DNA from: Streptomyces sp. NBC_01288
Lineage (GTDB): Bacteria > Actinomycetota > Actinomycetes > Streptomycetales > Streptomycetaceae
Assembly: GCF_035982055.1 (NCBI RefSeq)
Contig: NZ_CP108427.1
Location: forward strand, 8,431,001-8,495,000
DNA: 64,000 nucleotides
Direction: 5' to 3'
Below are positions 32,388 to 42,589 of this stretch, in pieces (the first letter of the stretch is position 1; every line of letters starts with the position of its first letter). The notes under the pieces were generated by a model. The model had not been told where the DNA came from, did not search any database, and saw nothing but the letters and a program-made list of their open reading frames with translations. The position numbers and the translations under genes were made by a program.

Positions 32388-33749
32388 ATGGACCGCCGCA
32401 TTTTCGGGCTGGAGAACGAGTACGGCGTCACGTGTACGTTCAGGGGACAGCGGCGTCTGTCTCCCGACGAAGTGGCTCGGTACCTCTTCCGCCGTGTCGT
32501 GTCATGGGGCCGCAGCAGCAATGTCTTTCTGCGAAACGGCGCCCGGCTCTATCTCGACGTGGGCTCACATCCGGAATACGCGACCCCCGAATGTGACAAC
32601 TTGACCGAACTGGTCACCCACGACAAAGCCGGCGAGCGCATTCTCGAAGGACTCCTGGTGGACGCCGAACGACGCCTGCACGAGGAGGGAATCGCGGGCG
32701 ACGTCTACCTCTTCAAGAACAACACCGACTCGGCGGGCAACTCGTACGGCTGCCACGAGAACTACCTGGTGGCACGGCACGGCGAGTTCTCCCGGCTCGC
32801 GGACATCCTCATCCCGTTCCTGGTCACGCGTCAGCTTCTGTGCGGCGCGGGCAAGGTGCTTCAGACTCCGCGTGGCGCCGTGTACTGCGTCAGCCAGCGC
32901 GCCGAACACATCTGGGAGGGCGTCTCCTCGGCGACGACGCGTTCCCGACCCATCATCAACACCCGGGACGAACCGCACGCGGACGCCGAGCGCTACCGCC
33001 GTCTCCACGTCATCGTGGGCGACTCGAACATGTCCGAGACGACCATGCTGCTCAAGGTCGGCGCCACCGACCTGGTGCTGCGCATGATCGAGGCGGGCAC
33101 GGTGATGCGCGACCTGACCCTGGAGAACCCGATCCGGGCGATCCGCGAGGTCAGCCACGACATCACGGGCCGGCGCAAGGTGCGTCTGGCCAGCGGACGC
33201 GAGGCATCCGCGATCGAGGTGCAGCGCGAGTACTACGAGAAGGCCGTGGACTTCGTCGACCGCCGCGGCATCCGTACCGGCACCGTCGCGCAGGTCCTCG
33301 AACTGTGGGGCCGGGTGCTGGACTCGATCGAGGCCGAGGACCTCGACCGGATCGGCACCGAGATCGACTGGGTCATGAAGTACCAGCTCATCGAGCGGTA
33401 CCGGGCGAAGCACAACATGACCATGTCCCACCCGCGGGTGGCGCAGATCGACCTCGCCTACCACGACATCCACCGTCGCCGAGGGCTCTACTACCTCCTG
33501 GAGAGGAAGGGCCAAGCCGCCCGGATCTGCAACGACTTGAAGATCTTCGAGGGCAAGTCCGTTCCGCCGCAGACCACTCGGGCCAGGCTCCGCGGCGACT
33601 TCATCCGCAGGGCTCAGGAACAGCGGCGGGACTTCACCGTCGACTGGGTCCATCTCAAGCTCAACGACCAGGCCCAGCGCACGGTGTTGTGCAAGGACCC
33701 GTTCCGTTCCGTGGACGACAGGGTGGAGAAACTGATCGCCGGAATGTAG
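32388..33749 (+). CDS. pafA: Pup-protein ligase
   Basis: The 453-residue protein has the same fold as Dop but lacks the Dop loop: [15 protein letters not shown] at the start with the metal/ATP Glu residues, catalytic Asp57 in [16 protein letters not shown], and [27 protein letters not shown]. With ATP it joins the C-terminal Glu of Pup to lysine side chains of target proteins. It is 2.5 kb away from prcA, separated by the LacI/MFS pair, and heads a run of genes pafA-FKBP-FKBP-pafB-pafC in one direction. Confidence 0.97.
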
Positions 33750-33795
33750 GCGAAAGTATCCGGATATCGACGTCCGGATGCATATTCGGTACGCC

Positions 33796-33832
33796 ACACG
33801 GGCCCCGTACGTTTCACGTACGGGGCCCGTGT
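33796..33832 (+). terminator. Terminator after pafA
   Basis: ACACGGGCCCCGTACG and CGTACGGGGCCCGTGT form a perfect 16-base stem with loop TTTCA, 47 bases after the pafA stop. Confidence 0.8.
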
Positions 33833-33891
33833 CGCACCGTAGAGTTGCGCGCACGCCATCAACAAGATCGACCGATTACGAGGCCTTCACC

Positions 33892-34905
33892 GTGCGCCGA
33901 CGCTCCGTTCTTATCGCTGTTCCCGCAGGACTTGTGACGCTCGCGGGGTGCGGTGACAGCGATTCCTCCTCCAGCAAGGCCAGCGCGTCGCCGTCGCCCT
34001 CGCCGTCCTCCTCGGCCTCGACCGTGCCGCCGCCGAAGCTCGTGGACGGTCCGCTGCCGGCGATCACCGCGGGCACCAAGTTCGACGAGAAGCCGACCGT
34101 CGCCAAGGGCACCGGCACTCCGTCGAAGGACCTCGCGGTGAAGACGGTGATCGCGGGCGGCGGCAAGGCCGTGGCGGAGGGCGACTTCGTCAAGGTGAAC
34201 TACCTGGGCCAGATCTGGTCGACGGCCAAGGTCTTCGACAACTCCTACGACCGCAAGACCTCGTTGGTCATCCAGCTCGCCCAGGGCGGCATCATCGACG
34301 GCTGGCGCTACGGCCTGGCGGGCAGGAAGGTCGGCAGCCGCGTCGAGATGGCGATCCCGCCGACCTGGGGATACGGCACGGCGGGCAGCCCCCAAGCGGG
34401 CATCAAGGGCACCGACACGCTGGTCTTCGTGATCGACATCCAGGACTCCTTCAACGCCAAGAGCTCCGCCAAGGGTTCGACCGTCGCGCAGTCCGACGCC
34501 GATCTGCCCAAGGTCGGCACGAACACCGACGGCAAGGCCCCCTCGGTCACCATCCCCAAGGCGGACCCGCCGAAGAAGCTGGTGTCGAACTACGTCCTGG
34601 AGGGCGACGGAGCCGTCGTCAAGGAGGCGCAGTCGATCCTCTGCCAGTTCAAGGGCGTGGTCTGGTCCACCGGCAAGGAGTTCGAATCGACGTACTCCCA
34701 GGGGCGGTTGAGCCAGTTCGCGATCAAGGACATGGAGTCGGTCGTCAAGGGTCTGGCCCAGGGCATCACCGGCAAGAAGGTCGGCAGCCGCATCATGATC
34801 GTGGCGCCCGCGGACCTGGCCTACGGGGACACCCCGCCGAGCGGCGGTGCCATCAAGAAGGGCGACACCCTGGTGTTCTCCGTGGACATCCTGGCGGCCA
34901 TGTGA
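33892..34905 (+). CDS. Lipoprotein with two FKBP-type peptidyl-prolyl isomerase domains
   Basis: The GTG at 33892 gives a proper lipoprotein signal (VRRRSVLIAV...LAGC, Cys20) and is preceded by GAGG; the longer upstream frame is not a signal peptide. A Ser/Pro-rich linker follows. FKBP domain 1 spans about residues 85-190 (GDFVKVNYLGQIWSTAKVFDNSY, IPPTWGYGTAG) and domain 2 about 235-337 (VVWSTGKEFESTY, VAPADLAYGDTPPSGG). The first is shorter in some motifs. It would help fold exported proteins at the outer membrane face. The full-length protein has 337 residues. Confidence 0.88.
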   Translation: MRRRSVLIAVPAGLVTLAGCGDSDSSSSKASASPSPSPSSSASTVPPPKLVDGPLPAITAGTKFDEKPTVAKGTGTPSKDLAVKTVIAGGGKAVAEGDFVKVNYLGQIWSTAKVFDNSYDRKTSLVIQLAQGGIIDGWRYGLAGRKVGSRVEMAIPPTWGYGTAGSPQAGIKGTDTLVFVIDIQDSFNAKSSAKGSTVAQSDADLPKVGTNTDGKAPSVTIPKADPPKKLVSNYVLEGDGAVVKEAQSILCQFKGVVWSTGKEFESTYSQGRLSQFAIKDMESVVKGLAQGITGKKVGSRIMIVAPADLAYGDTPPSGGAIKKGDTLVFSVDILAAM

Positions 34906-34999
34906 CCCCTGCGGGGATCGGCCTGGCCGGAGCGCGACCCCGGCTGGGATGCGAGACTGTCCGAGTTGTCTTGTCGTACACATAGCAGGAGCCAGAGAC

Positions 35000-35371
35000 G
35001 TGAGCATCGAGAAGCCCGAGATCGACTTCCCGGAGGGCGAAGCCCCGGCCGACCTGGAGATCGTGGATCTCTGGGAGGGTGACGGAGAGATCGCGGTGGC
35101 GGGCCAGAACGTCACCGTTCACTACGTGGGAGTCGCCTTCAGCACCGGCGAGGAGTTCGACGCCAGCTGGAACCGCGGCACCCCGTTCAAGTTCCCGCTC
35201 GGTGGCGGCCGTGTCATCAAGGGCTGGGACAAGGGCGTGCAGGGCATGAAGGTCGGCGGCCGCCGCCGGCTGACCATCCCGGCGCACCTCGCCTACGGCA
35301 ACCAGAGCCCGACCCCGGCGATCAAGCCGGGCGAGACCCTGATCTTCGTGGTCGACCTCATCGCCGTCTGA
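35000..35371 (+). CDS. Cytoplasmic FKBP-type peptidyl-prolyl isomerase
   Basis: The GTG at 35000 with AGGAG eight bases before it gives a 123-residue single FKBP domain beginning VSIEKPEIDFPEGEAP. Core motifs: VTVHYVGVAFSTGEEFDASW, FPLGGGRVIKGWDKGVQGMKVGGRRRLTIP and AYGNQSPTPAIKPGETLIFVVDLI. No signal peptide. It catalyses proline isomerisation and would bind FK506-like macrolides. It follows the two-domain FKBP lipoprotein after 94 bases. Confidence 0.94.
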   Translation: MSIEKPEIDFPEGEAPADLEIVDLWEGDGEIAVAGQNVTVHYVGVAFSTGEEFDASWNRGTPFKFPLGGGRVIKGWDKGVQGMKVGGRRRLTIPAHLAYGNQSPTPAIKPGETLIFVVDLIAV

Positions 35372-35503: not shown

Positions 35504-36457
35504 ATGGCCATTGCCAAGGCCGAGCGGCTGATGAACCTCGCGCTGTGTCTGCTCGGGACACGGCGGCCGCTCAGCAAGCGTGAGCTGCGCGAATCCATCG
35601 AGGCCTATCTCGAAGCGGGCAGCGACGACTCCTTCAACCGGATGTTCGAGCGCGACAAGGACGATCTGCGCGAACTCGGCCTCGTCATCGAGACGGTGGA
35701 GAACCTGGACGGCGAGGTCGGCTATCTCGCCCGCCGCGACAGCAACCGCCTCCCGCCCATCACCCTCGACGCCGAGGAGGCCGCCGCGCTCGGTCTCGCC
35801 GCCAAGGTGTGGCAGCAGGCCCGGCTCGCCGGCGCCGCGAGCGGCGCGCTACAGAAGCTGCGCGCGGCCGGGATGCCCGAGGACCTCGACCCGTACGAGC
35901 CGCACGGCGCCCTGGAGCCGCGCATCCCGGTGCACGAGGCGTCGTTCGAGCCGCTGATGCTGGCCTGCCGCGACCGCCGGCCCGTCCTCTTCGACTACCG
36001 CAAGGCCACCGCCGCCCGCCCCGAACCCCGCAACGTCGAGCCGTGGGCGCTGGAGTGCTGGCGCGGCCACTGGTACCTCGCCGGCTGGGACCGGGACCGG
36101 GGCGCCGAGCGGGTCTTCCGGCTGTCCCGGATCACCGGCAAGGTGCGCTCGCGCAACGGGCGGTTCACCGCGGACATCCCCGACGTCGTCACCGTGCGCG
36201 AGACCGTCGCGAGCTGGGCGGGGGAGACCGCCGACCGCTCCGCGCTGATCCGGCTGCGCACGGGCTCCGGGTACCCCTTGCGGGCGAAAGCCGCGGCGGT
36301 TCGGGAACTCGCGGACGGCTGGGACGAGTTGGAGATTCCGTACGGCCACGGGCTGGACGCCTGGCTGGTGGAGTTCGGGCCCGACGTGGTCGTCCTGGAG
36401 CCCGCCGAGCTGCGGGCCGACGTGGTGGACCGGCTGCGCGCTGTGGCCAAGGGCTGA
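35504..36457 (+). CDS. pafB: WYL-domain transcription activator PafB
   Basis: The 317-residue protein has an N-terminal winged helix-turn-helix (KAERLMNLALCLLGTRRPLSKRELRESIEAY), a helical linker, and a WYL domain with PLMLACRDRRPVLFDYRKA and WALECWRGHWYLAGWDRDRGAERVFRLSRI. PafB works with PafC as a heteromeric activator of the DNA-damage response, recognising TTGTCRGTG-N8-TANNNT promoters, probably after binding single-stranded DNA with the WYL domains. It is followed 19 bases later by pafC, and possible target promoters lie within the same cluster. Confidence 0.93.
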   Translation: MAIAKAERLMNLALCLLGTRRPLSKRELRESIEAYLEAGSDDSFNRMFERDKDDLRELGLVIETVENLDGEVGYLARRDSNRLPPITLDAEEAAALGLAAKVWQQARLAGAASGALQKLRAAGMPEDLDPYEPHGALEPRIPVHEASFEPLMLACRDRRPVLFDYRKATAARPEPRNVEPWALECWRGHWYLAGWDRDRGAERVFRLSRITGKVRSRNGRFTADIPDVVTVRETVASWAGETADRSALIRLRTGSGYPLRAKAAAVRELADGWDELEIPYGHGLDAWLVEFGPDVVVLEPAELRADVVDRLRAVAKG

Positions 36458-36476: not shown

Positions 36477-37493
36477 GTGGCAGGCAAACCGGTCAGGCCC
36501 GTCAACGCCATCGACCAGACCCGGCGGATGCTCTCCCTGGTGACCTATCTGAAGGAGCGCCCCGGAGCACGTATCGAGGACGTCGCCCGTGCCTTCGGGA
36601 TCACCGAGGACGAGCTGGTCTCCGACCTCGACGTGCTGCCCATGTGCGGAACCAGCTTCCGGGGCGGCGACCTGCTCGACATCGACACCGACGGCGACCG
36701 CATCTGGTGGCACAACCCGGACGACGTCGCCGAACCGCTCCGGCTCGCCGCCGACGAGGCGACCGCCCTCCTGGTGGCCGCCCGCGCCGTGTCGACCCTC
36801 CCGGGCCTGCGCGAGAGCGACCGGCAGGCGCTGCTGCGGGCCAACGCCAAGGTGGAGGCGGCGGCCGGTGAGGCGGCCGGGGCCAGCGCACGCCTCTCGG
36901 TGACCTTCGAGTCCGAGGGCGGGGTCTTCGCGGACGTCGACCGCGCGATCTCGGAGCGCCGCCGCCTGTGGATCCGCTACTACTCGCCCGCCCGCGACGA
37001 GTTGAGCGAGCGGGAGATCGACCCCATCCGGCTGGTCAGCGTCGGGCACACGTACGTGGAGGCCTGGTGCCGGCGCTCCGAGGCGCGGCGCACCTTCCGC
37101 CTCGACCGGGTCGCCGAGATCAAGATCCTCGACGAGCCGTCCGCCCCGCCCGAGATTGAACTGCGGGATCTGTCGGAGGCGCTGGTCCAGCCCGCCGCCG
37201 AGGACCCCGAGGTCGTCGTCGAGGTCGGCCCGGGTGGGCGCTGGGTCGCCGAGTACTACCCGCACGACAGTGCCGATGAGCTTCCCGACGGCGGGCTGCG
37301 TATTACCTTGCGCACCCCCGACCCGACGTCCCTGAGACGCCTGGCCCTGCGGCTCGGGCGCGACGGCCGGATCGTCTCCCCGAGCGACCTCGCCGACAGC
37401 GCCCGCCGGGCCGCCCGCGAGGCGTTGGCCGCCTACGACGGTCCGCAGGGTGTTGCTGACGCGGTGCACGGTGTTGACGAGAGGCCGGAGTGA
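36477..37493 (+). CDS. pafC: WYL-domain transcription activator PafC
   Basis: The 338-residue partner of PafB starts at a GTG. Winged helix-turn-helix: TRRMLSLVTYLKERPGARIEDVARAFGITEDELVSDLDVL. WYL domain: ERRRLWIRYYSPARDELSEREIDPIRLV and YVEAWCRRSEARRTFRLDRVAEI. The C-terminal extension after the WYL domain is characteristic. PafB and PafC are separate proteins here, as in mycobacteria; some other actinobacteria have them fused. Confidence 0.93.
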   Translation: MAGKPVRPVNAIDQTRRMLSLVTYLKERPGARIEDVARAFGITEDELVSDLDVLPMCGTSFRGGDLLDIDTDGDRIWWHNPDDVAEPLRLAADEATALLVAARAVSTLPGLRESDRQALLRANAKVEAAAGEAAGASARLSVTFESEGGVFADVDRAISERRRLWIRYYSPARDELSEREIDPIRLVSVGHTYVEAWCRRSEARRTFRLDRVAEIKILDEPSAPPEIELRDLSEALVQPAAEDPEVVVEVGPGGRWVAEYYPHDSADELPDGGLRITLRTPDPTSLRRLALRLGRDGRIVSPSDLADSARRAAREALAAYDGPQGVADAVHGVDERPE

Positions 37494-38151: not shown

Positions 38152-38174
38152 TTGTCGGTGGAGGCGGGTACGCT
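38152..38174 (+). promoter_or_regulatory. Perfect PafBC/RecA-NDp promoter motif before tatA
   Basis: TTGTCGGTG, then exactly eight bases, then TACGCT: every defined position of TTGTCRGTG-N8-TANNNT is matched. The tatA start lies about 170 bases downstream. The rest of 38088-38346 contains no gene. Confidence 0.75.
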
Positions 38175-38289
38175 GCTGATCGCGGTCCGGATAACGAGGC
38201 CCGGAGCGCGGACCGGGAGTACGCACGGGGATTGCCTCACGTTTACCCCTGAGCGTTACGATCGCTGGCAGCACGAAGGTCGGACAGAT

Positions 38290-38305
38290 GTCCGATCGAT
38301 CGGAC
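38290..38305. promoter_or_regulatory. 16-base perfect palindrome before tatA
   Basis: GTCCGATCGATCGGAC is self-complementary. With the TCGGACA just upstream (38280) it forms direct copies 20 bases apart. It lies 42 bases before the tatA start, a position fit for an operator or an RNA hairpin. Confidence 0.4.
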
Positions 38306-38346: not shown

Positions 38347-38628
38347 ATGTTCGGAAGGCTCGGAGCACCCGAGATCATTCTCATCCTCGTCGTCATCGTG
38401 CTCCTGTTCGGCGCGAAGAAGCTTCCGGACATGGCCCGCTCGCTCGGCAAGTCCGCCCGCATCCTCAAGAGCGAAGCCAAGGCGATGAAGGAAGAGGGCA
38501 ACACCACGCCCACCCCCGCCGGCCCGCCGAACACCGACGAGTCCGTGCAGCGCACCATCCAGGCGGCCCCCGGCGACGTGACCAGTGCGCGTCCCGTCAC
38601 CGAGCCGTCGGACACGACCAAGCGCTGA
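38347..38628 (+). CDS. tatA: Twin-arginine translocase subunit TatA
   Basis: The 93-residue protein begins MFGRLGAPEIILILVVIVLLFGAKKLPDMARSLGKS: a short membrane helix, the FGAKKLP hinge and an amphipathic helix, which is the complete TatA signature. A disordered Pro/Thr tail follows. TatA multimers form the channel for folded proteins with twin-arginine signals. tatC follows after 48 bases. A GAGAAGG ribosome-binding site is present. Confidence 0.96.
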   Translation: MFGRLGAPEIILILVVIVLLFGAKKLPDMARSLGKSARILKSEAKAMKEEGNTTPTPAGPPNTDESVQRTIQAAPGDVTSARPVTEPSDTTKR

Positions 38629-38676: not shown

Positions 38677-39639
38677 TTGCCTAAGTCTGCCCGCACGAAG
38701 GAGAAGGACCCCGAGGGGCGGATGCCCCTCGCGGACCATCTGCGCGAGCTGCGCAACCGGCTCGCGAAGGCGATGCTCGCCATCATCGTGGTGACCTGCG
38801 TGGCCGCCTTCTTCTACAACGACATCGTCAACATCATCACCAAGCCGGTGTTGCACTCGGTCGGTTGCTCCCAGAACTTCGAGCAGTTGTCGAGGTCGTC
38901 GGCGAAGACCCAGCAGTGTGCGCAGATCACGATCAACGGTCTGCTGACGCCGTTCACGCTGGCGTTGAAGGTGTCCCTGATGGCCGGTGTCGTACTGGCC
39001 TCCCCGGTCTGGCTGTACCAGCTCTGGGGCTTTGTCGCGCCGGGCCTGCACAAGAACGAGAAGAAGTACGCGCTCTCCTTCGTCGGCACCGGCGTTCCGC
39101 TGTTCCTCGGCGGCGCCTACTTCGCCTACAAGGTGCTGCCCACCACGGCTAAGGTGCTGATCGGCTTCACGCCGAGCGGTGTCGACAACCTGCTGCCACT
39201 GGACGACCTGCTCGACCTGGTCACGCGCATGGTGCTGGTCTTCGGCCTCTCCTTCGAGCTGCCGCTGCTGCTGATCATGCTCAACCTCACGGGGGCGCTG
39301 ACCGGCAAGCGGATGCTCGGCTGGTGGCGCGCCATGATCCTCGGCATCACGGTCTTCGCGGCCGTCGCCACCCCCAGCACCGACCCGCTGACCATGCTGG
39401 CGCTGGCCGGGCCGATCTGGGTGCTGTACTTCGGCGCCGTCGTCTTCTCTCTGCTCAACGACCGGCGCAAGCGCCGCCGCGAGGCGGACGGACCGGACGA
39501 CGACGAGGCCTCGGACCTGGACCTGACCCCCGAGGACATCGGCGACATCGAAGCCGTCTCGGCCGGCCGGGCAGCTCTGCCCGAGCAGGCGAGCGGCACG
39601 GGTTCCGACCGGGTCAACGGGTATGACGACGTGACCTGA
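38677..39639 (+). CDS. tatC: Twin-arginine translocase subunit TatC
   Basis: The 320-residue protein starts at a TTG with AGGA before it. The N-terminal signature MPLADHLRELRNRLAKAMLAI is that of TatC. Six membrane segments follow, with SPVWLYQLWGFVAPGLHKNEKKYA between segments 2 and 3, where the receptor site for the RR motif lies. The C-terminal 60 residues form a long acidic cytoplasmic tail. With TatA (and TatB encoded elsewhere) it builds the Tat receptor. Confidence 0.96.
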   Translation: MPKSARTKEKDPEGRMPLADHLRELRNRLAKAMLAIIVVTCVAAFFYNDIVNIITKPVLHSVGCSQNFEQLSRSSAKTQQCAQITINGLLTPFTLALKVSLMAGVVLASPVWLYQLWGFVAPGLHKNEKKYALSFVGTGVPLFLGGAYFAYKVLPTTAKVLIGFTPSGVDNLLPLDDLLDLVTRMVLVFGLSFELPLLLIMLNLTGALTGKRMLGWWRAMILGITVFAAVATPSTDPLTMLALAGPIWVLYFGAVVFSLLNDRRKRRREADGPDDDEASDLDLTPEDIGDIEAVSAGRAALPEQASGTGSDRVNGYDDVT

Positions 39640-39658
39640 TCACCTTCCGAACTCCACC

Positions 39659-39695
39659 GAGACCGGCCGTTCCCGCAGCGCGGGCGGCCGGTCTC
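39659..39695 (+). terminator. Terminator after tatC
   Basis: GAGACCGGCCG pairs with CGGCCGGTCTC and CCCGC with GCGGG inside, giving a 16-base stem with a two-base bulge, just before the helicase promoter. Confidence 0.75.
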
Positions 39696-39736
39696 CGTGT
39701 GTGGAGGACTCGTGGGAACGGATAATGATCGTCCTG

Positions 39737-39759
39737 TTGTCAGTGGCGCCCGGTACGCT
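39737..39759 (+). promoter_or_regulatory. Perfect PafBC/RecA-NDp promoter motif before the helicase gene
   Basis: TTGTCAGTG, exactly eight bases, TACGCT: a full match to TTGTCRGTG-N8-TANNNT. The -10 ends ten bases before the helicase ATG at 39770, so the leader would be a few bases long. Confidence 0.8.
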
Positions 39760-39769
39760 CGAAAGCACG

Positions 39770-42589
39770 ATGACAGAGGACCTCTCCCCGGCCGAGCGGT
39801 ACGCGGCAGCCCGCCTGCGGGCAGCCGAGCAGGCCACCGCGCTCGCGGACTTCCGCGAGATGTACGACTTCGGTCTCGACCCCTTCCAGATCGAGGCCTG
39901 CCAGGCGCTCGAAGCGGGGAAGGGCGTGCTGGTCGCGGCGCCCACCGGCTCCGGCAAGACGATCGTCGGCGAGTTCGCCGTCCACCTCGCCCTCCAGCAG
40001 GGCAAGAAGTGCTTCTACACGACCCCGATCAAGGCACTGTCGAACCAGAAGTACGCCGACCTGTGCCGCCGTTACGGCGCGGACAAGGTCGGCCTGCTCA
40101 CGGGCGACAACAGCGTCAACTCCGAAGCCCCGGTGGTCGTGATGACCACCGAGGTGCTGCGCAACATGCTGTACGCGGGTTCGCAGACCCTCCTCGGCCT
40201 CGGCTATGTGGTCATGGACGAGGTGCACTACCTCTCCGACCGCTTCCGCGGCGCCGTATGGGAAGAGGTGATCATCCACCTCCCCGAGTCGGTGACCCTG
40301 GTCTCCCTGTCGGCGACCGTGTCGAACGCGGAGGAGTTCGGCGACTGGCTCGACACCGTCCGCGGTCACACCGAGGTGATCGTCTCCGAGCACCGGCCCG
40401 TGCCGCTGTTCCAGCACGTGCTCGCCGGGCGGCGGATGTACGACCTCTTCGAGGAGGGCGAGGGCAGCAAGAAGGCGGTCAACCCCGACCTCACGCGCCT
40501 GGCCCGCATGGAGGCGCAGCGCCCCTCGTACCAGGACCGCAAGCGCGGCCGTGCCATGCGCGAGGCCGACCGGGAGCGGGAGCGCAGATCGCGGTCACGG
40601 GTGTGGACACCGGGCCGCCCCGAGGTCATCGAGCGGCTGGACAACGAGGACCTGCTGCCCGCCATCACGTTCATCTTCAGCCGCGCCGCCTGCGAGGCCG
40701 CCGTACAGCAGTGTCTGTACGCCGGGCTGCGGCTCAACGACGACGAGGCACGGGAGAAGGTGCGGGCGCTCGTCGAGGAGCGCACGGCGTCCATCCCGAA
40801 CGAGGACCTGCATGTCCTCGGGTACTACGAGTGGCTGGAAGGCCTGGAGCGCGGCATCGCGGCCCACCACGCGGGCATGCTGCCGACGTTCAAGGAGGTC
40901 GTGGAGGAGCTGTTCCTGCGCGGGCTCGTGAAGGCCGTGTTCGCCACGGAGACACTGGCGCTCGGCATCAACATGCCCGCGCGCTCGGTGGTGTTGGAGA
41001 AGCTCGTCAAGTGGAACGGCGAGCAGCACGCCGACATCACCCCCGGCGAGTACACCCAGCTGACCGGCCGGGCCGGCCGTCGCGGCATCGATGTCGAGGG
41101 CCACGCCGTCGTGCTGTGGCAGCGCGGGATCAGCCCCGAGCACCTCGCCGGACTGGCCGGCACGCGCACGTATCCGCTGCGCTCCAGCTTCAAGCCGTCG
41201 TACAACATGGCGGTCAACCTCGTCGAGCAGTTCGGGCGGCACCGGTCGCGGGAGCTGCTGGAGACGTCCTTCGCGCAGTTCCAGGCCGACCGGTCGGTCG
41301 TCGGGATCTCGCGGCAGGTGCAGAGGAACGAGGAGGGTCTGGAGGGCTACAAGGACTCCATGACCTGCCACCTGGGCGACTTCGACGACTACATGCGGCT
41401 GCGCCGCGAGCTCAAGGACCGCGAGACCGAGCTGGCCCGGCAGGGCGTGGCACAGCGCCGTACTGAGGCCGCCGTGGCGCTGGAGAAGCTCAAGCCGGGT
41501 GACGTCATCCATGTCCCGACCGGCAAGTACGCCGGTCTGGCGCTGGTGTTGGACCCGGGACTGCCCGCCGGGCGGTCCAACGGGCATCGCGGATTCGAGC
41601 AGCACGACGGACCGCGTCCGCTGGTCCTGACCGTCGAGCGGCAGGTCAAGCGGCTCGCGTCGATGGACTTCCCCGTCCCCGTCGAGGCGTTGGAGCGGAT
41701 GCGGATCCCGAAGTCCTTCAACGCCCGTTCCCCGCAGTCCCGTCGGGACCTCGCCGCCGCGCTGCGCACCAAGGCCGGGCACATTCCGCCGGAGCGGGCC
41801 CGCAAGCAGCGCTCGCAGGCCGCGGACGACCGGGAGATCGCGCAGTTGCGTACGGCGATCCGGGCGCATCCGTGTCATGGGTGCAACGACCGTGAGGATC
41901 ACGCGCGTTGGGCCGAGCGGTATCACCGGCTGCAGCGGGACACCACGCAGTTGGAGCGGCGGATCGAGGGGCGGACGAACACGATCGCCCGGACCTTCGA
42001 CCGGATCGTCGCGCTGCTGACCGACCTTGACTATCTGCGGGGCAACGAGGTCACCGAGCACGGGAAGCGGCTGGCGCGGCTGTACGGCGAGCTTGATCTG
42101 CTGGCCAGTGAGTGTCTGCGGGAGGGGGTCTGGGAGGGGCTTGCTCCTGCCGAACTCGCCGCGTGTGTCTCGGCGTTGGTGTTCGAGGCGCGGGTCAGCG
42201 ACGACGCGACTGTTCCCAAGGTGCCGTCGGGTGCGGCCAAGGCCGCGCTCGGGGAGATGGTGCGGATCTGGGGGCGGCTCGACGCCCTTGAGGAGGACTT
42301 CCGGATCACTCAGACCGAGGGGGTCGGGCAGCGGGAGCCTGATCTTGGGTTTGCCTGGGCCGCGTATATGTGGGCCAGTGGGAAGGGGTTGGACGAGGTG
42401 CTTCGGGAGGTTGAGATGCCTGCCGGGGACTTTGTTCGGTGGTGTAAGCAGGTGATCGATGTGTTGGGGCAGATTTCTGCTGCGGCGCCGGTTACTGGCG
42501 GGGAGGCGTCATCTACCGTGGCCAAGAATGCGCGTAAGGCTGTGGAGTTGTTGCTGCGGGGGGTTGTGGCGTACTCGTCGGTGGGGTAG
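39770..42589 (+). CDS. helY: HelY-like Ski2-type DEAD/DEAH RNA/DNA helicase
   Basis: I take the ATG at 39770 (939 residues) since the upstream frame runs through the promoter. Walker A APTGSGKT is at 57-64, box DEVH at 150-153, motif III SLSATVSN, and the C-terminal helicase lobe has FATETLALGINMPARSVV and TGRAGRRGID. Ski2/DSHCT-like regions fill the C-terminus, including a CHGCNDREDHARW segment. Mycobacterial HelY has the same plan and also follows tatC. It is thought to unwind structured nucleic acid. The last 500 bases use more T-ending codons than the rest. Confidence 0.92.
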   Translation: MTEDLSPAERYAAARLRAAEQATALADFREMYDFGLDPFQIEACQALEAGKGVLVAAPTGSGKTIVGEFAVHLALQQGKKCFYTTPIKALSNQKYADLCRRYGADKVGLLTGDNSVNSEAPVVVMTTEVLRNMLYAGSQTLLGLGYVVMDEVHYLSDRFRGAVWEEVIIHLPESVTLVSLSATVSNAEEFGDWLDTVRGHTEVIVSEHRPVPLFQHVLAGRRMYDLFEEGEGSKKAVNPDLTRLARMEAQRPSYQDRKRGRAMREADRERERRSRSRVWTPGRPEVIERLDNEDLLPAITFIFSRAACEAAVQQCLYAGLRLNDDEAREKVRALVEERTASIPNEDLHVLGYYEWLEGLERGIAAHHAGMLPTFKEVVEELFLRGLVKAVFATETLALGINMPARSVVLEKLVKWNGEQHADITPGEYTQLTGRAGRRGIDVEGHAVVLWQRGISPEHLAGLAGTRTYPLRSSFKPSYNMAVNLVEQFGRHRSRELLETSFAQFQADRSVVGISRQVQRNEEGLEGYKDSMTCHLGDFDDYMRLRRELKDRETELARQGVAQRRTEAAVALEKLKPGDVIHVPTGKYAGLALVLDPGLPAGRSNGHRGFEQHDGPRPLVLTVERQVKRLASMDFPVPVEALERMRIPKSFNARSPQSRRDLAAALRTKAGHIPPERARKQRSQAADDREIAQLRTAIRAHPCHGCNDREDHARWAERYHRLQRDTTQLERRIEGRTNTIARTFDRIVALLTDLDYLRGNEVTEHGKRLARLYGELDLLASECLREGVWEGLAPAELAACVSALVFEARVSDDATVPKVPSGAAKAALGEMVRIWGRLDALEEDFRITQTEGVGQREPDLGFAWAAYMWASGKGLDEVLREVEMPAGDFVRWCKQVIDVLGQISAAAPVTGGEASSTVAKNARKAVELLLRGVVAYSSVG

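Follow-up and report, generated by a model that had tools for sequence, protein, structure and literature searches.

In mycobacteria, PafBC that has been activated by single-stranded DNA (ssDNA) is reported to insert between sigma region 4 and the DNA and to read an element near position −26 (PMC11804915), and the tie between PafBC and the promoter motif TTGTCRGTG-N8-TANNNT comes from ChIP and structural work (PMC6789036, PMC11804915). The motif is also called RecA-NDp and is known from the recA promoter of Streptomyces rimosus (Ahel 2002, as cited in later papers). In Streptomyces coelicolor, a RecA-NDp promoter precedes SCO6735, which encodes a macrodomain protein of the DarG/TARG1 branch and is reported to rise about 5-fold after UV (PMC5087735, PMC9411070). 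The SIGffRid study took the motif as a possible sigma site and predicted 67 such S. coelicolor genes, including dinP, priA, radA, dinG, recQ, ung, and uvrB (PMC2375139); helY, the gene examined here, may be among those in its table. The occurrence of the motif in Streptomyces is already known and is not new. The original prediction for this locus described the motif as known from mycobacteria, which is correct but too narrow, given the S. rimosus and S. coelicolor examples. In a study of DNA damage and LexA in Streptomyces venezuelae, a first search for the M. smegmatis PafBC motif did not show it to be conserved, and the main text never names helY (PMC9380542). That study left open a LexA-independent PafBC-type damage response in Streptomyces after its seemingly negative motif search.

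A second regulator, WblC (WhiB7), is reported to bind GAAAWY 3 bp upstream of the −35 element in S. coelicolor, with a further 16 to 19 bp before TANNNT (PMC7157823). According to the same source, the direct targets of WblC in S. coelicolor include HelY (SCO1631); its RNA is 5.1-fold higher in the wild type than in a wblC mutant under tetracycline, and the protein is found with ribosomes. SCO2532, described there as a YbeZ orthologue, is also a WblC target (PMC7157823). By their titles, none of the papers listed for PafBC with WhiB7, or for WblC with DNA damage in Streptomyces, is on helY. Here, we describe the helY promoter of Streptomyces sp. NBC_01288 within a window of 64,000 nucleotides, the whole stretch of DNA that was analyzed, and compare it with promoters in other genomes of the genus, order, class, and phylum.

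Results

Just upstream of helY, the plus strand carries TTGTCAGTG-N8-TACGCT at positions 39737 to 39759 (full letters, TTGTCAGTGGCGCCCGGTACGCT), and every defined base of TTGTCRGTG-N8-TANNNT is matched there, as the original prediction had stated. The −10 element TACGCT (39754 to 39759) ends 10 nt before the ATG of the helicase gene at 39770. The scan of the 64-kb window returned two perfect matches, compared to none in 100 dinucleotide shuffles; the second, at 38152 to 38174, was absent from the original prediction. No sigma-70 −35/−10 pair was found between 39500 and 39800. Control of helY by LexA was ruled out, the best SOS-like match having 5 mismatches. Thirteen columns downstream of the T of the −10 element lies an A that is conserved in 77 of 79 Streptomyces genomes and that corresponds to 39767 in the window, 3 nt 5′ of the ATG. 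This position, adjacent to the 39766 given in the original prediction, is the predicted transcription start, which would leave helY with a leader of about 3 nt and place the start almost on the ATG.

The host genome (10.56 Mb in one contig) contains 48 perfect matches to the motif versus 0 for the pattern read backwards, and recA is among the genes preceded by one; the genome-wide count against chance that had been proposed with the original prediction thus came out in its favor. Across 81 Streptomyces genomes, the host included, there are 2,021 matches (9 to 48 per genome, the host having the highest count) versus 8 for the control. Of 198 genomes sampled across the phylum, 53 carry one match or more, and all counts above 3 belong to the same class. 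The negative motif search reported for S. venezuelae does not fit the 81 genomes, a comparison made for the genus as a whole and not for S. venezuelae in particular.

From the DNA flanking the 48 sites, an open reading frame could be assigned to 47 of them, the site at L123 having none. At 27 of the 47 assigned sites, the −10 element is followed by a start codon 6 to 10 nt downstream, mostly at 6 to 8 nt; in addition to these 27, a short frame of 45 amino acids begins 7 nt after the −10 element at L013. The 27 sites point to a class of near-leaderless promoters. The DNA-repair genes behind them include recA, uvrA, uvrB, uvrD/pcrA, ruvC, dnaX, and genes encoding a RarA/MgsA-type ATPase, a RecD2-like helicase, a uracil-DNA glycosylase (UDG), an O6-alkylguanine transferase, and an AlkZ-like glycosylase. 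A RadA-like ATPase (named from its domains) and a DarG-like macrodomain protein, the type to which SCO6735 belongs, are also encoded behind sites. At L114, some 2 kb separate uvrB from the O6-alkylguanine transferase gene on the other strand, and each of the two has a perfect PafBC site of its own. The remaining genes encode PhoH, MurC, FolB, an ECF sigma factor, transporters, regulators, and proteins without a family; perfect sites thus also stand before the non-repair genes murC (L007), folB (L020), and that of the SigX5-type ECF sigma factor (L014). Because each of the 81 Streptomyces genomes sampled has an excess of the motif, and the genes behind it, resolved in one genome, are rich in repair functions, the question of a PafBC response in Streptomyces is directly testable. 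We propose that the site at 39737 to 39759 belongs to a genus-wide Streptomyces PafBC regulon, in which it would serve as a PafBC-dependent, near-leaderless helY promoter.

To compare helY promoters within the genus, we used orthologues with at least 85% identity over 200 residues, which were present in 79 of the 81 Streptomyces genomes; the two genomes left out (G050, 82% complete, and G079, 78% complete) have no close helY orthologue among the matches listed. TANNNT lies 8 to 10 nt before the helY ATG in all 79 genomes. TGTC occurs at one exact PafBC offset in 78 of the 79, the exception being L108/G037, and in none of the 79 at 20 slid offsets, sampled at every third base to 30 bases on either side. 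All nine bases of TTGTCRGTG are retained in 25 genomes, and the element has 1 mismatch in 17, 2 in 22, 3 in 8, and 4 in 7. The divergent elements often read CTGTCAGAG, which counts against a full PafBC reading genus-wide. Among 80 named closest relatives, whose helicases are up to 94% identical to the window protein, TGTC is found in all 80 and the perfect motif in 65, in a set that is biased to conservation and that overlaps the 79 genomes and is not independent of them. Columns −50 to −33 of the helY promoters hold at most 0.25 bit.

Outside Streptomyces, we examined 60 helY loci, comprising 13 of the 15 same-order genomes listed and 47 members of the class picked by hand for their spread of families. 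TANNNT is located 5 to 11 nt before a start codon in 47 of the 60 (2.9 expected from shuffles). TGTC-N12-TANNNT is near helY in only 7 of the 60: 4 of 13 in the same order, where the true start of several loci lies well upstream of the search anchor and misses within the 220 to 270 bases searched are less certain in place, not in presence, and 3 of 47 elsewhere in the class, including one that is 199 nt from the anchor. In family f3, a PafBC-like motif close to helY is seen at two of seven loci, both from genus g4 (L250 and L259), and not at the other five; an independent gain in genus g4 is possible. Because TGTC is mostly absent outside the genus and the −10 element is retained, PafBC control looks as if it had been grafted onto an older near-leaderless promoter. 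The PafBC element at helY therefore looks like a largely Streptomyces-side addition, and the near-leaderless −10 element appears to be old.

Just upstream of where a −35 element would lie, the window has an AT-rich box, GATAATGATC (39721 to 39730, plus strand), which we propose as a WblC/WhiB7 site. Within it, GATAAT agrees with GAAAWY at 5 of 6 positions, and 18 bp separate the putative −35 and −10 elements. Across helY promoters, the box, which lies 25 to 33 bp before the −10 element, is 75% AT; the flank has 26%, and the corresponding place in the other 47 PafBC sites has 27%. Its typical forms are ATAATGATC and TAAAGATC. GAAAWY is matched at 4 or more of 6 positions at WblC spacing in 69 of 79 helY promoters, in 4 of the other 47 PafBC sites, and in about 12% of random sequences. 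All six positions match in 1 of the 79, and the literal fit is weak in many species. The GAAAWY test used the published consensus; a regular expression for the AT-rich box, which matches 72 of the 79, was written after the sequences had been seen. An AT-rich element general to PafBC sites was ruled out, as the columns upstream of the motif are nearly without information across the 48 sites, with the exception of G/A at −1. New here is the conserved AT-rich box at the WblC position of the helY promoter, a box that is absent from most other PafBC sites. A different arrangement was seen at G056:C5:239295-239341 and 13 similar places in about 14 genomes, where another PafBC site lies behind a conserved, inverted-repeat-like CTCTGGCCAGGGGC box, and a different second regulator may share that promoter.

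Among the other 47 PafBC sites, the best fit to GAAAWY precedes phoH/ybeZ (L112), the counterpart of S. coelicolor SCO2532, with ybeY as the next gene. In the phoH loci of the best 30 of 61 genomes, TGTC and TA are present in 20 and the WblC fit is at least 5 of 6 in 23. The phoH/ybeZ frame at L112 (821 to 2947) contains a LAGLIDADG intein within PhoH, and across 61 Streptomyces genomes the phoH open frames form one group of about 342 to 557 amino acids and another of about 693 to 1,194, which suggests a scattered intein. Before perfect PafBC sites, GAAA occurs at the WblC register 31 times in the 81 genomes versus 18 times at a shifted register; the genes behind the 31 include phoH, uvrA, an MFS gene, and an ABC exporter gene, the last two named from their first residues. 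Because the 31 and the 18 both come from few orthologous groups, we do not claim a general link between PafBC and WblC sites. Given the AT-rich box at WblC spacing, the status of SCO1631 as a WblC target, and the parallel at phoH, we propose that the helY promoter is composite, with PafBC acting upon DNA damage, WblC probably acting through the GATAATGATC box upon translation stress, and TACGCT as the −10 element common to both activators.

Could the helY promoter be essentially a WblC/HrdB promoter, with TGTC kept for another reason, for example as part of an extended −10 or −35 element for HrdB, and no PafBC control in most species? The demonstration that helY is a WblC target in S. coelicolor (PMC7157823) speaks for this explanation, as does the loss of the nine-base element in 54 of 79 genomes where TGTC, the AT-rich box, and the −10 element stay. 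We nevertheless consider it unlikely. Most of the 48 perfect TTGTCRGTG sites have no AT-rich box, which shows that TTGTC also occurs independently of it, and the helY promoters outside the genus retain the −10 element mostly without TGTC, so TGTC is not simply a need of the −10 element. In the host species, moreover, the PafBC element is perfect.

The genes for the proposed activator lie 2 to 4 kb upstream of helY, where the original prediction had put them, and their coordinates and domains agree: pafB at 35504 to 36457 (WYL and WCX domains) and pafC at 36477 to 37493 (HTH_PafC, WYL, and WCX domains), both on the plus strand. The window PafB and PafC match the PafBC chains of the solved structures 7p5x, 9fnd, and 6sj9, and their alignment to the M. 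smegmatis and A. aurescens chains spans nearly the whole length. When read from the alignments against the residues named in PMC11804915 and PMC6789036, the ssDNA-binding residues R181, Y196, R204, R208, R211, and R214 of PafB and R201 and R204 of PafC (M. smegmatis numbering) are kept, as are the recognition-helix arginines R44 and R48 (A. aurescens numbering). Reading of the motif by a regulator other than PafBC has some basis in the literature: ClgR, which has been proposed for recA P1 in mycobacteria, is cited as recognizing the P1 region in M. smegmatis, and an alternative sigma factor would fit the SIGffRid description of the motif as a possible sigma site. Since ChIP and structure tie the motif to PafBC in mycobacteria, and since the DNA-reading and ssDNA-binding residues are conserved in the window proteins, we regard such a regulator as improbable.

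The gene order on the plus strand is pafA (32388 to 33749), two FKBP-type isomerases, pafB, pafC, a small unknown gene, tatA (38347 to 38628; TatA_B_E), tatC (38677 to 39639; TIGR00945), and helY. The two FKBP-type prolyl isomerase frames between pafA and pafB span 33778 to 34905 and 34847 to 35371. The second perfect PafBC-type match (38152 to 38174, plus strand) lies 172 nt before the tatA ATG. Between this match and tatA, at 38280 to 38295, there is also a palindrome, TCGGACAGATGTCCGA, 2 mismatches from TCGAAC-N4-GTTCGA. As tatA, tatC, and helY are on the same strand behind a second perfect motif, helY might be transcribed mainly from a tat promoter that includes the 38152 site, with the proximal motif of little weight. 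In the 129 loci (window included) that extend 2 kb or more upstream of helY, however, a perfect match 200 to 2,700 nt before helY is found only in the window and in L125, and the match at 38152 is ruled out as a second control point of a tatAC-helY unit. A tatA-anchored scan agrees, but 74 of its 130 loci lack a tatA call, and the conclusion relies on the 129-locus scan. Between tatC and the helY promoter there is, in addition, a GC-rich stem-loop without a U-tract (39655 to 39699, plus strand; −36.2 kcal/mol, z = −4.5), matched in stability by 1 of 200 shuffles; a search that requires a T-run found no terminator-like site near it. The stem-loop may insulate helY from tatAC transcription. With the proximal promoter conserved genus-wide and the tatA-side match confined to the host species and L125, transcription mainly from the tat side is very improbable. 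A chance match has nothing for it except the short length of the motif and virtually no probability left, given the absence of matches in shuffles and for the reversed pattern and the fixed orthologous position in 78 of 79 genomes, which by itself already refutes it.

The helY gene (39770 to 42589, plus strand) encodes a 939-amino-acid protein with DEAD, Helicase_C, and DSHCT domains, an Mtr4/Ski2-like RNA helicase whose N terminus, MTEDLSP, is conserved from the ATG at 39770. Its nearest solved structures are Mtr4/Dob1 and Ski2, the Mtr4/Dob1 chains being matched at an E value of about 1e−101. RNA-stimulated ATPase activity and RNA:DNA unwinding are published for M. smegmatis HelY only (Uson 2015, quoted in PMC8931766). 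Because HelY falls by sequence in the Mtr4/Ski2 group of RNA helicases, a “DNA-damage gene” may in this case mean one that clears RNA or RNA:DNA hybrids, rather than one that unwinds DNA. We therefore suggest that, after damage, HelY may remove RNA:DNA hybrids or stalled RNA.

Discussion

Taken as a whole, the observations are best explained by a PafBC-dependent, near-leaderless helY promoter that is part of a Streptomyces regulon, combined with a WblC box and an RNA role for HelY, and we hold this explanation to be probable. PafBC would let the housekeeping RNA polymerase (HrdB) use a promoter that has no −35 element: PafB would read TTGTCRGTG near −26, by sigma adaptation as shown in mycobacteria, and transcription would begin at about 39767. 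Under translation stress, WblC at the box just upstream of the missing −35 element would bring HrdB to the same −10 element. Since sigma region 4 is where each of the two activators acts, PafBC and WblC would probably form an either/or switch at helY. HelY itself would remove structured RNA or RNA:DNA hybrids from stalled replication, transcription, or translation, so that DNA breakage and inhibitors of protein synthesis may both turn on a single helicase. The claim of the original prediction that a PafBC-type promoter drives the helicase as a DNA-damage gene fares well as a prediction, being in line with the genome-wide signal, the repair-rich genes, the fixed geometry, and the conserved PafBC residues, and induction of helY by damage is what these would lead one to expect. 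As a description it was incomplete, for it lacked the second box at the WblC position.

A broader reading, which we advance tentatively and to which we give somewhat less than an even chance, treats the helY and phoH/ybeZ promoters alike as composite, with the HrdB-remodeling activators PafBC (responding to ssDNA) and WblC (responding to a translation block) competing for the sigma-4 surface at a common −10 element. If so, RNA-handling proteins associated with ribosomes would be the common endpoint of DNA damage and of antibiotics that target the ribosome, and the promoters would work as either/or gates that guard against R-loops and against stalled complexes of transcription and translation; at helY, this control would be an addition made in the Streptomyces lineage to an older leaderless promoter. 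A composite promoter would offer a simple case of two RNA-polymerase-remodeling activators with one −10 element, and would tie an RNA helicase to genotoxic and antibiotic stress alike.

Compared to the known RecA-NDp/PafBC promoters (recA P1 of S. rimosus and of mycobacteria, and SCO6735), the helY promoter has the same two-part motif and spacing and likewise lacks a −35 element; as in those systems, the motif is linked to DNA-repair genes, and the genome encodes PafBC with its key residues. What sets helY apart is an additional AT-rich box upstream of where a −35 element would lie, and a product that is an RNA helicase. The gap between its −10 element and the ATG is 10 nt, compared to 6 to 9 nt at other near-leaderless PafBC sites. 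Relative to the WblC/WhiB7 promoters of S. coelicolor (GAAAWY-N3-[-35]-N16-19-TANNNT), the AT-rich box of helY is at the right distance from TANNNT, but it often agrees with GAAAWY at 4 or 5 of 6 positions and a PafBC element lies between the box and the −10 element. Mycobacterial HelY, compared here by description, shares the gene name and the DEAD/DEAH helicase description, and the window HelY belongs with the Mtr4/Ski2 relatives.
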